From IMG/VR virus record IMGVR_UViG_3300025727_000008, positions 1-64,000 of that record: a stretch of DNA of 64,000 nucleotides, one strand, 5' to 3'. The DNA comes from a virus. The notes under the pieces were generated by a model that searched no databases, had not been told where the DNA came from, and was given only the letters and a program-made list of their open reading frames with translations. Made by a program: the position numbers and the translations under genes. Positions 23,616-46,197 of the stretch are shown here, piece after piece (positions within the stretch are counted from its first letter, which is position 1; every line of letters begins with the position of its first letter).

Positions 23616-24092
23616 TTAATATTCTGCACCATATTGGTTATCTACTTTAACAGGCAGCATTAGTCCATCACCCATTGGTTCTCCCCACATTTCATCATCC
23701 TTTAGTTTGTAATCTATATATGCTGGATGAACTTCACCCATTCCACCTGAAGGAGTTTGTCGCATATTGGTATCTTTCTTACTATTCGTTTCTTCCTTAT
23801 ATTCATCAGATGTATCTACTAAGCCTTGAATTAAGTGAAGCAAAGCACTATTGTAGGATTCTTTAGCATGTTCTAACCTGTTAAATTTCTCATCAATATA
23901 TTTAAAATCTTCTTCTGATAACTTTCCGTCTAATTTTGGAAATCGCTCATATGCTAAATGCTCAAAATCACCCCAATCTAATTTGGAAAAAGGCTCTATT
24001 TCCAAACTTTCTAATTCGTCTGCTATATCTTCTAATTCTTCCGCAATGCTACCTTTATCATTTATCTTTACTATATCTTTCCACCAACTCAT
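23616..24092 (-). CDS. W-tagged acidic protein
   Basis: 158 residues beginning MSWWKDIVKINDKG. The body is acidic and helical (AEELEDIADELESLEIEP; YIDEKFNRLEHAKESYNSALLHL) and ends GLMLPVKVDNQYGAEY. No catalytic motif, Cys cluster or membrane span. Belongs to the run of tagged genes from 23.3 to 26.7 kb. Unknown function; internal head protein is inferred from the tag. Confidence 0.6.
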   Translation of the reverse strand: MSWWKDIVKINDKGSIAEELEDIADELESLEIEPFSKLDWGDFEHLAYERFPKLDGKLSEEDFKYIDEKFNRLEHAKESYNSALLHLIQGLVDTSDEYKEETNSKKDTNMRQTPSGGMGEVHPAYIDYKLKDDEMWGEPMGDGLMLPVKVDNQYGAEY

Positions 24093-43571: not shown

Positions 43572-43698
43572 AACATCACCAATAGATTAACCCGATACAC
43601 TATCCTTAATTAAATTAGTTATTAATAATAATAAAATAAAAAAAAAATTAAAACGCAAAGCATATGGTTGGATAAATATATTGTTGTCCAACCATATG
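43572..43698 (-). promoter_or_regulatory. divergent promoter/operator for the virion block
   Basis: Between the first minus-strand gene and the plus-strand control region lies an A/T-only stretch (about 43605-43655) containing TATA-like sequence, then a perfect 12-base inverted repeat CATATGGTTGGA (43661-43672) / TCCAACCATATG (43687-43698) around the spacer TAAATATATTGTTG. This suits a regulator-bound promoter driving the block leftward. Confidence 0.5.
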
Positions 43699-43771
43699 GT
43701 AGCATTCATTGTTAAATGTGCTACCATACGGGGTTTCGGGGGGAATACTAATGTTTGACGAAGAAGATTGA
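43691..43771 (+). other. control unit A: palindrome, hairpin, G-rich site, acidic mini-ORF
   Basis: ACCATATGGT (43691-43700) runs into a hairpin GGTAGCA / TGCTACC (43698-43724), then GGGG and GGGGGG tracts, then ATG TTT GAC GAA GAA GAT TGA (43751-43771), encoding MFDEED. The same order recurs as unit B at 44348-44420. A perfect 12-base inverted repeat, GGGGGGAATACT (43738-43749) / AGTATTCCCCCC (43798-43809), encloses the mini-ORF. It may be a leader peptide or RNA switch. Confidence 0.55.
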
Positions 43772-43810
43772 TTAACAAGTTAAGTCTATCATACGGGAGT
43801 ATTCCCCCCA

Positions 43811-43833
43811 ACCATATGGTAATGCACTTTGTA
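43811..43833 (+). repeat. composite repeat copy 1 (ACCATATGGT + CACTTTGTA)
   Basis: ACCATATGGT followed after four bases by CACTTTGTA, a two-mismatch version of AACTTTGTG. Direct orientation, just upstream of the first plus-strand gene. Confidence 0.5.
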
Positions 43834-43870
43834 CTTATTACCTTATATGTATGGTAATTATACCATTATT

Positions 43871-44074
43871 ATGGTAAACTTTACACGAGCGGACTTTCAA
43901 TTACTTGCAGTGTTAGCAATTGATATGAAATTAACAGAAGAACAAAAGAACATATATGTTGCTAATCTAAAACGCACTAATATTAACTTCAATGAAGATA
44001 AATTCAGAAAGGCTATGATGATTGAATATAACAATCGTCATATTGCCGGCGAATTTGCAATAGGTGGGATTTAA
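43871..44074 (+). CDS. small protein of the control region, first rightward gene
   Basis: 67 residues from the ATG at 43871 (MVNFTRADFQLLAVLAIDM). TTATATG lies about 25 bases upstream with little room for a leader, fitting an archaeal TATA box and leaderless start; an in-frame ATG at 43829 would add 14 residues. Helical, with a DNA-binding-like mix of Arg/Lys and aromatic residues, but no clear helix-turn-helix. It is followed without a gap by a zinc microprotein. Regulator of the flanking repeats is a guess from position. Confidence 0.5.
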   Translation: MVNFTRADFQLLAVLAIDMKLTEEQKNIYVANLKRTNINFNEDKFRKAMMIEYNNRHIAGEFAIGGI

Positions 44075-44158
44075 ATGAAAGAATGCTATAAATGTGGAAA
44101 AATAATCAGTGATAATAAATATTGTTGTTATTCTTGTATTAAAAGTGAGGCGATATAA
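44075..44158 (+). CDS. 27-residue zinc-ribbon microprotein
   Basis: ATG directly after the upstream TAA. Product MKECYKCGKIISDNKYCCYSC... has CxxC and CCxxC pairs 11 residues apart, a minimal zinc ribbon. Its TAA shares the A of the next ATG (mini-ORF MFDEED). Confidence 0.55.
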   Translation: MKECYKCGKIISDNKYCCYSCIKSEAI

Positions 44159-44178
44159 TGTTTGACGAAGAAGATTAA
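44158..44178 (+). CDS. acidic mini-ORF MFDEED, second copy
   Basis: Six codons plus stop, identical in the protein it encodes to the mini-ORF of unit A and started by a TAATG overlap with the zinc microprotein. A third version, VYDDED from a GTG after GGGGGTGA, is at 44400-44420. Three coupled or well-primed copies suggest these are translated. Confidence 0.4.
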   Translation: MFDEED

Positions 44179-44332
44179 TATAACTCAAACGGGCAAATGC
44201 GAAGACTACTGAGCGAACTTTGTAGGTTAATGAACTCGGCCATAATGGTTTTCTATTGAAATACCATTTGGATAGCCAACCTACCCATTGTAAGTCCCGA
44301 CCTAATAAAATTCCCTTCGGGGTCTTAATAAT
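44179..44332 (+). ncRNA. structured non-coding stretch after the mini-ORF
   Basis: No good frame. GTAGGTT (about 44212) and AACCTAC (about 44278) form a seven-base inverted repeat around about 60 bases, and CCCTTCGGGG near 44312-44321 is a tight stem with a T/A-rich flank. It could be a small RNA or an untranslated region with terminator. Weak call. Confidence 0.3.
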
Positions 44333-44357
44333 CACAAAGTTCTCACAACCATATGGT
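44333..44357 (-). repeat. composite repeat copy 2 (inverted)
   Basis: CACAAAGTT (44333-44341), six bases, ACCATATGGT (44348-44357): the exact core pair in reverse orientation. Confidence 0.65.
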
Positions 44358-44420
44358 AGCATCAATAAAGATGCGCTACCACATCGGGGGTGAAAATAAG
44401 TGTACGACGACGAAGATTGA
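44348..44420 (+). other. control unit B: palindrome, hairpin, ribosome site, acidic mini-ORF
   Basis: ACCATATGGT, then hairpin GGTAGC / GCTACC with an inner ATC/GAT pair, then GGGGGTGA, then GTG TAC GAC GAC GAA GAT TGA (44400-44420), encoding VYDDED. Same order and spacing as unit A, and the mini-ORF is similar in protein but not identical in DNA, which points to selection on the peptide. Confidence 0.5.
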
Positions 44421-44453
44421 TTATCCTAACAATACAAGTGTAAGTCCTACCAC

Positions 44454-44477
44454 ACCATATGGTTTGGTAACTTTGTG
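44454..44477 (+). repeat. composite repeat copy 3
   Basis: ACCATATGGT (44454-44463), five bases, AACTTTGTG (44469-44477), direct orientation. Confidence 0.65.
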
Positions 44478-44705
44478 GAAACCCTAATTATAATAAAATT
44501 ATAACAAATTACTAAAAGGGCATCGGGTAGCAGTGACTTTACTATAAAATACGATTAAGGTTCTTGCAATCCGTTCCGGTATGTCGAAGTTTCTAGAATG
44601 TCGGGATAGCGGTCAGGCATAGTGTTTGTGTCTTGCGTCGTGGTTTTTTATATCGTGAAATTAATCACTGTGCGTGTGTATTGCTACTTTCAGCCCTAAA
44701 GGTAA
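44478..44705. other. non-coding spacer
   Basis: About 230 bases between composite repeat 3 and the leftward gene at 44.7-45.0 kb. The composition is more balanced than the flanks (for example CGGGTAGCAGTGACTTT near 44527 and GTCGGGATAGCGGTCAGG near 44599), which can mark a small RNA. I could not fold it into a tRNA and see no convincing frame. Confidence 0.25.
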
Positions 44706-44990
44706 TCAGATTACAATGGGAATGGGTGTTAGGGAAAGAAGAAGAGTATTATATTGTTCAATATTATCTTCAGTAATATCACCAAAGGCATTTATTGCAT
44801 CAATGTTTTTCTTCATTATTGTTAGTGCTTTAGTTGCTTCTTCTACTACTTCAGATGCAAAATCACCTCTAAATTTTAAGGACTTAATAATAATCTTATG
44901 TACTGAACCAGATTTAGATTGTGATATTTCTATTTCAAAGGGATAAGACATATTTAATATCTGTTCGGGTGTGTTTGTATGTTCTGCCAT
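44706..44990 (-). CDS. small leftward protein in the control region, unknown
   Basis: 94 residues from the ATG at 44990 (MAEHTNTPEQIL); a longer frame starts at 45014. TATATTTA lies about 20 bases upstream, fitting an archaeal promoter with a short leader. The only leftward gene inside the rightward half, it begins next to composite repeat 4, which would lie between its promoter and that of the gene at 45.1 kb. Mixed alpha/beta, acidic. A repressor-like role is possible but no DNA-binding motif is seen. Confidence 0.5.
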   Translation of the reverse strand: MAEHTNTPEQILNMSYPFEIEISQSKSGSVHKIIIKSLKFRGDFASEVVEEATKALTIMKKNIDAINAFGDITEDNIEQYNTLLLSLTPIPIVI

Positions 44991-45040
44991 AATCCAAGCA
45001 TGATAAATATACATATGAGGTAATGATTACAAAGTATCAT

Positions 45041-45063
45041 ACCATATGGTTGTGAACTTTGTG
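45041..45063 (+). repeat. composite repeat copy 4
   Basis: ACCATATGGT (45041-45050), four bases, AACTTTGTG (45055-45063), between the divergent genes at 44.99 and 45.14 kb; likely operator. Confidence 0.65.
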
Positions 45064-45139
45064 AACTCACCCTATATGTGAATATATTCACCCCTCATTG
45101 TGCTGAGGGTAATACCACAGAGAAAGGAAAGTGAATAAA

Positions 45140-45613
45140 ATGGCAAAATACACAACAACCGAAATAAGAGATATAATGACGACATGGGTGGATTCTGAAA
45201 AGAACACTACCGGATGGATGAAAGGAGCAGTTGAGGATGCTTGCGCTAATTTAGATGCAGGAGAAATAACTGAATCTGTATTCAGTTCTTCAATTCAAGG
45301 AATGTGCAGACAACTTAAGGAGAATCCACTATCACGACGCGGAACCAATTTCTCATATGATGAAACACGAGAAATTAACCTCGCAGAATGCAAGACCTTT
45401 ACCACAACAATTGAAACAGCATTTAATAAATTAAGCCCAGTGGCTCAAACTTATTACCGAGCAAAGATTTCAGACCAACGCCCAGCAGGAATATACGCCA
45501 ACGGCGCAGATTTAGCCGGATTTATGTACGAAAGATGCGAAGGCGAAGCAAAAATTCAGCAAAAGGCTGATAAAAAGTCAAGCAAAGCAAGTGCGAAAGG
45601 GGGCAATATCTGA
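45140..45613 (+). CDS. helical protein with Lys/Ser-rich tail, unknown
   Basis: 157 residues from the ATG at 45140 (MAKYTTTEIRDIM), after AGGAAAGTGAATAAA; the GTG at 45131 is part of the ribosome site. GAATATATTC and TATATG lie upstream. GC content is visibly higher than neighbouring genes. The body is helical with conserved-looking turns (ISDQRPAGIYANGADLAGFMY) and ends in KKSSKASAKGGNI. Flanked by composite repeats 4 and 5. Strong ribosome site and better codons suggest high expression, as for a nucleoid or replication-initiation protein, but I do not recognise it. Confidence 0.6.
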   Translation: MAKYTTTEIRDIMTTWVDSEKNTTGWMKGAVEDACANLDAGEITESVFSSSIQGMCRQLKENPLSRRGTNFSYDETREINLAECKTFTTTIETAFNKLSPVAQTYYRAKISDQRPAGIYANGADLAGFMYERCEGEAKIQQKADKKSSKASAKGGNI

Positions 45614-45647
45614 GGTTGTCCCTTCCCTCGGCACACTTGGGGTTTCT

Positions 45648-45670
45648 CACAAAGTTCCACACCATATGGT
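45648..45670 (-). repeat. composite repeat copy 5 (inverted)
   Basis: CACAAAGTT (45648-45656), four bases, ACCATATGGT (45661-45670), directly after the 157-residue gene. Confidence 0.65.

Positions 45671-46015: not shown

Positions 46016-46197
<182 letters not shown>

Follow-up and report, generated by a model that had tools for sequence, protein, structure and literature searches.

Ribosome-destabilizing short ORFs with early acidic codons have been described in bacteria. The design closest to the units reported here is that of MgtQ, an 8-residue ORF with AGGAGG and with acidic codons at positions 2 and 5, which lies inside alternative stem-loops (PMC8092293). In MgtL, early acidic residues cause intrinsic ribosome destabilization in bacteria (PMC11282234), and N-terminal D/E runs abort translation in yeast and in a human-factor system (PMC9718836). 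Destabilization of the ribosome by acidic chains in archaea was not found in the literature searched. Attenuator leader peptides of the trp and mgtL type also consist of a short ORF within alternative RNA hairpins. Among viruses, the bar minigenes of phage lambda have two codons, are not acidic, lie near the attachment/control region, act via peptidyl-tRNA drop-off and are toxic.

Here we analyzed 64,000 nucleotides (hereafter the window) from the beginning of a virus record that is 78,572 bases long; they contain palindrome-bounded units with an acidic mini-ORF. These units have in common with MgtQ and MgtL a very short ORF, a strong Shine-Dalgarno sequence, early acidic codons and, in the predicted folds of most units, overlapping alternative stem-loops (PMC8092293, PMC11282234). 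MgtQ and MgtL are bacterial and lie upstream of the transporter gene they control, whereas the units are viral, probably archaeal and multicopy, with no controlled gene seen; they are also far more acidic and contain no proline. Unlike attenuator leaders, they have no evident downstream gene, and D/E is their only codon run. Like lambda bar, they are stand-alone viral few-codon ORFs with a ribosome site near a control region, but bar has no hairpin closing the ribosome site, whereas the units have a predicted one. The surroundings of the units resemble the early gene islands of archaeal viruses, with small single-gene cassettes, one conserved promoter element, a TATA box, and an inverted repeat as the likely regulator site (PMC11065993). 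In contrast to those islands, the motif CAAAGT-ACCATATGGT-ACTTTG stands apart as an element of its own, 32-34 bp upstream of TATA, and the mini-ORF units have no TATA. No described unit of this anatomy was found in the open-access literature searched.

The virus and its strand-switch control region

The ORFs of the window included a terminase large subunit (PF17289, Pfam search), a TFIIB-like protein whose Pfam matches were weak and below the cut-off, and ATP-dependent DNA ligase-like proteins recognized from the ORF list. Such gene content fits an archaeal tailed virus, the host of which is probably marine archaea and may be of Poseidoniales type. No host record was found by searching GTDB with the unit-B hairpin and the terminase. 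The hairpin was present in none of 84,980 GTDB genomes, and the terminase matched only two contigs binned as Maricaulis, one of them without palindromes in its 21 kb searched; these contigs are probably mis-binned virus and thus give no host evidence.

Up to about 43.6 kb the genes pointed left, and beyond about 45.1 kb most of them pointed right. The GC skew, which was -0.13 at 42-44 kb, had turned to +0.10 at 44-46 kb. These changes mark the region at 43.6-45.7 kb as the strand switch and a probable replication origin. The control region proper (43600-45670) separates left-going structural from right-going replication genes at the GC-skew minimum. Near its left end, the hairpin CATATGGTTGG...CCAACCATATG (43661-43698) stands beside an A-tract (43630-43655), and this hairpin was present at the equivalent position in three relatives (L118, L110 and L119, introduced below). 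The whole control region gave no match to annotated phages, and Rfam gave none above the gathering score in the window.

Two units and a coupled third mini-ORF

Units A (43691-43820) and B (44348-44463), both on the plus strand, have the same order of palindrome, hairpin, G-rich ribosome site, mini-ORF, trailer and palindrome, and both are bounded by ACCATATGGT. The first four elements had been described in an earlier note made from the letters alone, and their coordinates were confirmed; overlooked there were the closing palindromes, the pairing of the trailer onto the ribosome site or start, and the repeated 3' hairpin arm. In unit A, the opening palindrome (43691-43700) is followed by hairpin 1, GGTAGC/GCTACC (43698-43725, arms 43698-43703 and 43720-43725), the ribosome-site arm GGGGGGAATACT (43738-43749), the mini-ORF encoding MFDEED (43751-43771, ATG TTT GAC GAA GAA GAT TGA), the anti-ribosome-site arm AGTATTCCCCCC (43798-43809) and the closing palindrome (43811-43820), which is at the same time the upstream promoter element of ORF 43871-44074. 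Unit B runs from its palindrome (44348-44357) through hairpin 1, GGTAGCATC/GATGCGCTACC (44355-44380, arms 44355-44363 and 44370-44380), the ribosome site GGGGGTGA (44386-44393), the mini-ORF encoding VYDDED (44400-44420, GTG TAC GAC GAC GAA GAT TGA) and the trailer GTAAGTCCTACCACACC to a second palindrome (44454-44463). The 3' arm of hairpin 1 recurs behind the mini-ORF as CTACC, so that the 5' arm GGTAGC has two partners. A stem of at least 6 bp beside the palindrome was found at 213 of 506 site-strands of the family, versus 81 in shuffles; the palindrome-adjacent hairpin is not specific to mini-ORF units.

A further MFDEED, said in the earlier note to start by a TAATG overlap after a zinc microprotein, was located at 44158-44178 on the plus strand (mini-ORF C), with a GAGG ribosome site upstream. 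It stands behind a 27-residue CxxC microprotein, MKECYKCGKIISDNKYCCYSCIKSEAI (44075-44158, plus strand), which had no Pfam match. A frameshift fusion was unsupported for mini-ORF C, the frame being closed 12 bases upstream. In L118 (4409, minus strand), a TAATG-coupled MFDEED follows an unrelated gene.

Acidic mini-ORFs preceded by a ribosome-site motif numbered exactly three in the window, and a stretch of 670 bases holds them all. Whole-window shuffling (40 times) gave a mean of 0.075 short acidic ORFs when the ribosome site was ignored and none with one, and 1000 shuffles of 43600-45129 gave a mean of 0.002, again none with a ribosome site. Chance is thus ruled out, and the mini-ORF cluster is real. 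CCATATGG occurred six times in the window, always within 43691-45670, against 0.75 expected.

Mini-ORFs in related viruses

A hairpin-pattern search found three records (L007, L013 and L014), and a terminase search led to 80 loci; 49 records, mostly those behind these loci, were searched whole. ACCATATGGT was present in 35 of the 49, and where positions were listed, its sites fell in one few-kb region per genome with an occasional outlier. The comparison set consisted of 34 control regions (L102-L135), in which L118, L110 and L119 are the same records as L007, L013 and L014, respectively. Mini-ORF units, sought in relatives as the earlier note had suggested, were found in five other records: L118 (two units), L110, L119, L131 and L135, the last two near-identical. 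The frame was always intact. With the window included, six genomes among about 35 control regions carry the unit.

The peptides were MFDEED (A), VYDDED (B) and MFDEED (C) in the window, MFDEED, MFDDEEN and MFDEED in L118, VDEEEEEQE and MKDDEEEEEN in L110, VDEDEEEEQE and MTYIYSEEEEEEEN in L119, and VDIFYDDDE in L131/L135, with lengths of 6-14 residues across genomes. In every unit, Asp/Glu occurs among the first codons and the ORF is preceded by a ribosome site of its own; the counterpart of the unit B site was GGAGGTG in L118 B, L110 and L119, and L131 also had a perfect GGAGGTG. The distance from palindrome to start codon was 51, 51, 51, 53 and 54 in the B type and L131, and 59 and 61 in the A type.

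Between the window and L118, substitutions were of the coding type that the earlier note had proposed looking for. Copies A and C differed by two synonymous changes only (TTT/TTC and GAC/GAT), which are not independent since the two copies are letter-identical inside each genome. Copy B differed by TAC/TTT (Y/F), two GAC/GAT, GAT/GAA (D/E), GTG/ATG and one extra codon. One inserted codon separates the units of L110 and L119; for the promoter-driven copies of these genomes, the difference is four codons plus several residues. All indels between relatives were multiples of three, without exception in these small numbers, and a hairpin kept together with a broken mini-ORF frame was seen in no relative. 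The suggestion that the peptide itself matters held for the frame and the acidic residues and failed for the exact peptide: L110 is a close relative with a 92% identical terminase, and it has VDEEEEEQE, not MFDEED, so that charge is conserved and not sequence. The comparison thus supports a coding constraint that acts on acidic charge and not on one exact peptide, and the conserved features are the frame, the ribosome site and the acidity. MKDDEEEEEN (L110) and MTYIYSEEEEEEEN (L119) are each the first ribosome-site ORF of an ordinary TATA-promoter cassette, so that the acidic mini-ORFs resemble independent gene products.

Among 28 stretches of viral contigs that matched a pattern for free MFDEED-like ORFs, 26 were the ends of longer open frames, L178 had no CCATATGG nearby, and only L007 belonged to the family. 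The trailer pattern AAGTC...ACCACACCATATGG gave three new matches, all unrelated, and a search for anti-SD plus palindrome returned, besides unrelated sequences, the L131/L135 records only.

Predicted folding of the unit RNAs

Unit A was predicted to form a 12-bp GGGGGGAATACT/AGTATTCCCCCC helix with the ribosome site inside and the entire ORF looped (-52.8 kcal/mol, z -5.6). L118 A, with AGTATCCCCCC opposite GGGAGGGATACT, was predicted to fold in the same way (z -4.2), and one compensatory A-U to G-C change distinguishes the two helices. The clearest pairing of a trailer onto the ribosome site and start was GGAGGTGAAA/TTTCACCTCC in L131, which extends over the GTG (-50.2 kcal/mol, z -4.7). The GTG start region was paired with trailer CCAC in L119 (z -4.4), L110 (z -3.0) and window B (z -2.1), and in L118 B the ribosome site was paired (z -1.0); predicted folding was weak in the last two. 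Alternative pairings overlapping the ORF were strong in A, L131, L118 A, L119 and L110, and weak in B and L118 B. As read from the sequence, the promoter-driven mini-ORFs of L110 and L119 are closed by GCTACCATG/CATGGTAGC or a shorter form. These models suggest that a closed initiation region may be reached via different sequences, though not strongly in every copy. For seven units aligned with MAFFT, RNAalifold misaligned L131, and its result was left out of the evidence. Box C/D RNA and integron-like attC sites were also considered and not supported.

A shared promoter and the genes behind the units

Throughout the family, the palindrome forms the upstream part of a promoter, (CAAAGT)-ACCATATGGT-(ACTTTG), with TATA mostly 32-34 bases on and ATG 26-28 later. 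In the 34 control regions and the window, ACTTTG was found at 206 site-strands, mostly 12-17 from the palindrome. A TATA-like box was recognized at 86 of these, its distance from the palindrome peaking at 32-34, and the next ATG peaked at 26-28 from TATA, a spacing as for leaderless mRNA. This promoter drives cassettes of one gene each, which face either way and whose arrangement changes from genome to genome, and several small genes share one regulatory sequence with a TATA box. In the units, the ribosome site takes the position expected for the TATA box, and an inward-facing promoter of this kind therefore does not drive them. At unit B, ACTTTG is on the outer side of the unit and absent from its interior. 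The units have no consensus TATA directed into them, and their transcription is therefore assumed.

The earlier proposal of a leader peptide found no support in what lies downstream. No gene on the same strand was obviously led by the unit behind B, L118 B, L110, L119 or L131. Unit A is followed by ORF 43871-44074 (plus strand, 67 residues, MVNFTRADFQ..., probably leaderless), which has its own TATA at family-standard spacing (ACTTTGT 43826-43832, TATA 43843-43849) and relatives in 8 of the 34 control regions. A T-run was found about 50 nt behind L118 B, L110 and L119, in L118 B between the unit and the structural operon. The orientation of the units relative to neighboring genes flips between genomes.

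Possible function of the mini-ORFs

We put at roughly 40% the probability that the units are stand-alone mini-genes whose polyacidic nascent chain destabilizes the ribosome in the manner of MgtL/MgtQ. Units A and B would be self-contained transcription units of an archaeal tailed virus, placed in its early/origin control region. Hairpin 1, a strong ribosome site and an ORF of 6-10 codons would be present on each RNA, and most trailers are predicted to pair with the ribosome site or the start codon, which would let the RNA be closed or open. The selected product would be an acidic nascent chain with Asp/Glu near the N-terminus, not an exact peptide. A ribosome translating the mini-ORF in vivo would open the hairpin, start the acidic run, be destabilized and drop off, and the outcome might be an RNA kept switching between alternative pairings, or a translation apparatus taxed or sensed. 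Since only N-terminal acidity is kept, intrinsic ribosome destabilization is a known effect that needs nothing else, and since no controlled gene was found, the output would be the fate of the RNA itself or an effect on ribosomes in trans. A tentative and rather doubtful generalization would be a class of stand-alone polyacidic mini-genes in archaeal viruses, in which an anti-Shine-Dalgarno trailer clamps the ribosome site and the only product, a 6-14-residue acidic chain, makes ribosomes drop off; the class would serve as a translation effector or sensor with no controlled downstream gene.

A serious rival, possible though less probable than ribosome destabilization, is that a free acidic micropeptide acts in trans, for example by imitating DNA or the acidic tail of a protein and binding a basic host or viral protein. 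Several copies would raise the dose of such a peptide, and the genomes do hold several, in varied RNA contexts that include the TAATG-coupled copy and sole-gene cassettes; the lack of a downstream gene agrees with it, as do the early anti-defense genes on shared promoter islands of archaeal viruses (PMC11065993). However, the peptides have no motif besides acidity and range in length from 6 to 14, and a trans-acting peptide leaves the folded-shut ribosome site unexplained. The clustering of all palindromes at the strand switch and skew minimum, with hairpins generally flanking them and unit order and orientation varying between genomes, could instead mean that the unit works mainly as a DNA or RNA element in origin function or recombination, with palindromic hairpins and cassette borders, and that the mini-ORF is its by-product. 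We regard this as unlikely: a by-product would not be expected to have its ribosome site, start codon, frame, stop and acidity preserved each time, or to turn up again within promoter cassettes and as the coupled mini-ORF C.

Somewhat more improbable still is a cis leader or attenuator, in which translation of the mini-ORF chooses between alternative hairpins and controls a downstream gene. The GGTAGC arm can indeed pair either within hairpin 1 or with the CTACC that recurs behind the ORF, and unit A lies upstream of ORF 43871-44074; yet that gene has its own TATA at standard spacing, B, L118 B, L110, L119 and L131 are without an evident downstream gene of their own, and the flipping orientation speaks against control of a neighbor. 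That the mini-ORF encodes a secreted or shared signaling hexapeptide of the arbitrium type is very improbable. Six residues repeated identically within a genome would suit such a signal, but the 6-14-residue ORFs contain no export signal, signal sequence or precursor, no receptor gene was recognized, the neighbors at 43871-45613 gave no Pfam match, and the sequence differs between close relatives.

A family of such mini-ORFs is kept in frame here in several virus genomes and copies, with a ribosome site predicted to be clamped by its own complement. Ordinary gene annotation ignores six-codon genes. If translated, the mini-ORFs would be among the smallest viral genes known and would extend nascent-chain-driven ribosome destabilization to archaea and viruses. 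The promoter rule (palindrome, ACTTTG, TATA at 32-34, leaderless start) predicts early genes of an uncultured marine virus group.

Neighboring genes and other features

The palindrome at 45041-45050 serves two divergent promoters, one for ORF 44706-44990 leftward and one for ORF 45143-45613 rightward, and the last palindrome of the array lies at 45661-45670. A protein search found no viral relatives of the 45143-45613 product. ORF 44706-44990 (minus strand) encodes a small conserved protein, EIEISQSKSGSxHxxIIKSLKxRGD, with no Pfam match, which was present in 25 of the 34 control regions and in 23 viral contigs. About 300 bases between palindrome/promoter and the gene of this KSGS protein were 90% identical between L118:4802-5160 and L119:2414-2772, and the cassettes near them differ between the two genomes. 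Weaker counterparts were seen at L110:3426-3712 and at 44455-44706 of the window. This stretch, in which no gene was recognized, is a candidate noncoding RNA.

At the L118:3758 site, minus strand, a leaderless 11-codon ORF encodes MQISIGYDEDE, with an acidic tail; it stands directly before the next gene, and its end overlaps the start of that gene (ATGAATGA). The window also has a noncoding stretch between 45.7 and 47.1 kb, with a long (CT)n run at 46130-46178. Finally, many otherwise unrelated window proteins have a common N-terminal motif, M-x-W-x-x-[IL]-[ILV]-K (MSWQQLLK, MNWFNIIR, MTWFDLIK, MDWFSVLK), in minus-strand ORFs starting at 24092, 26746, 37072, 38308, 41123, 41825, 42786, 43219 and 43571. 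The motif was found in L007 and L013 too, and it looks as if it were a shared targeting or packaging tag.
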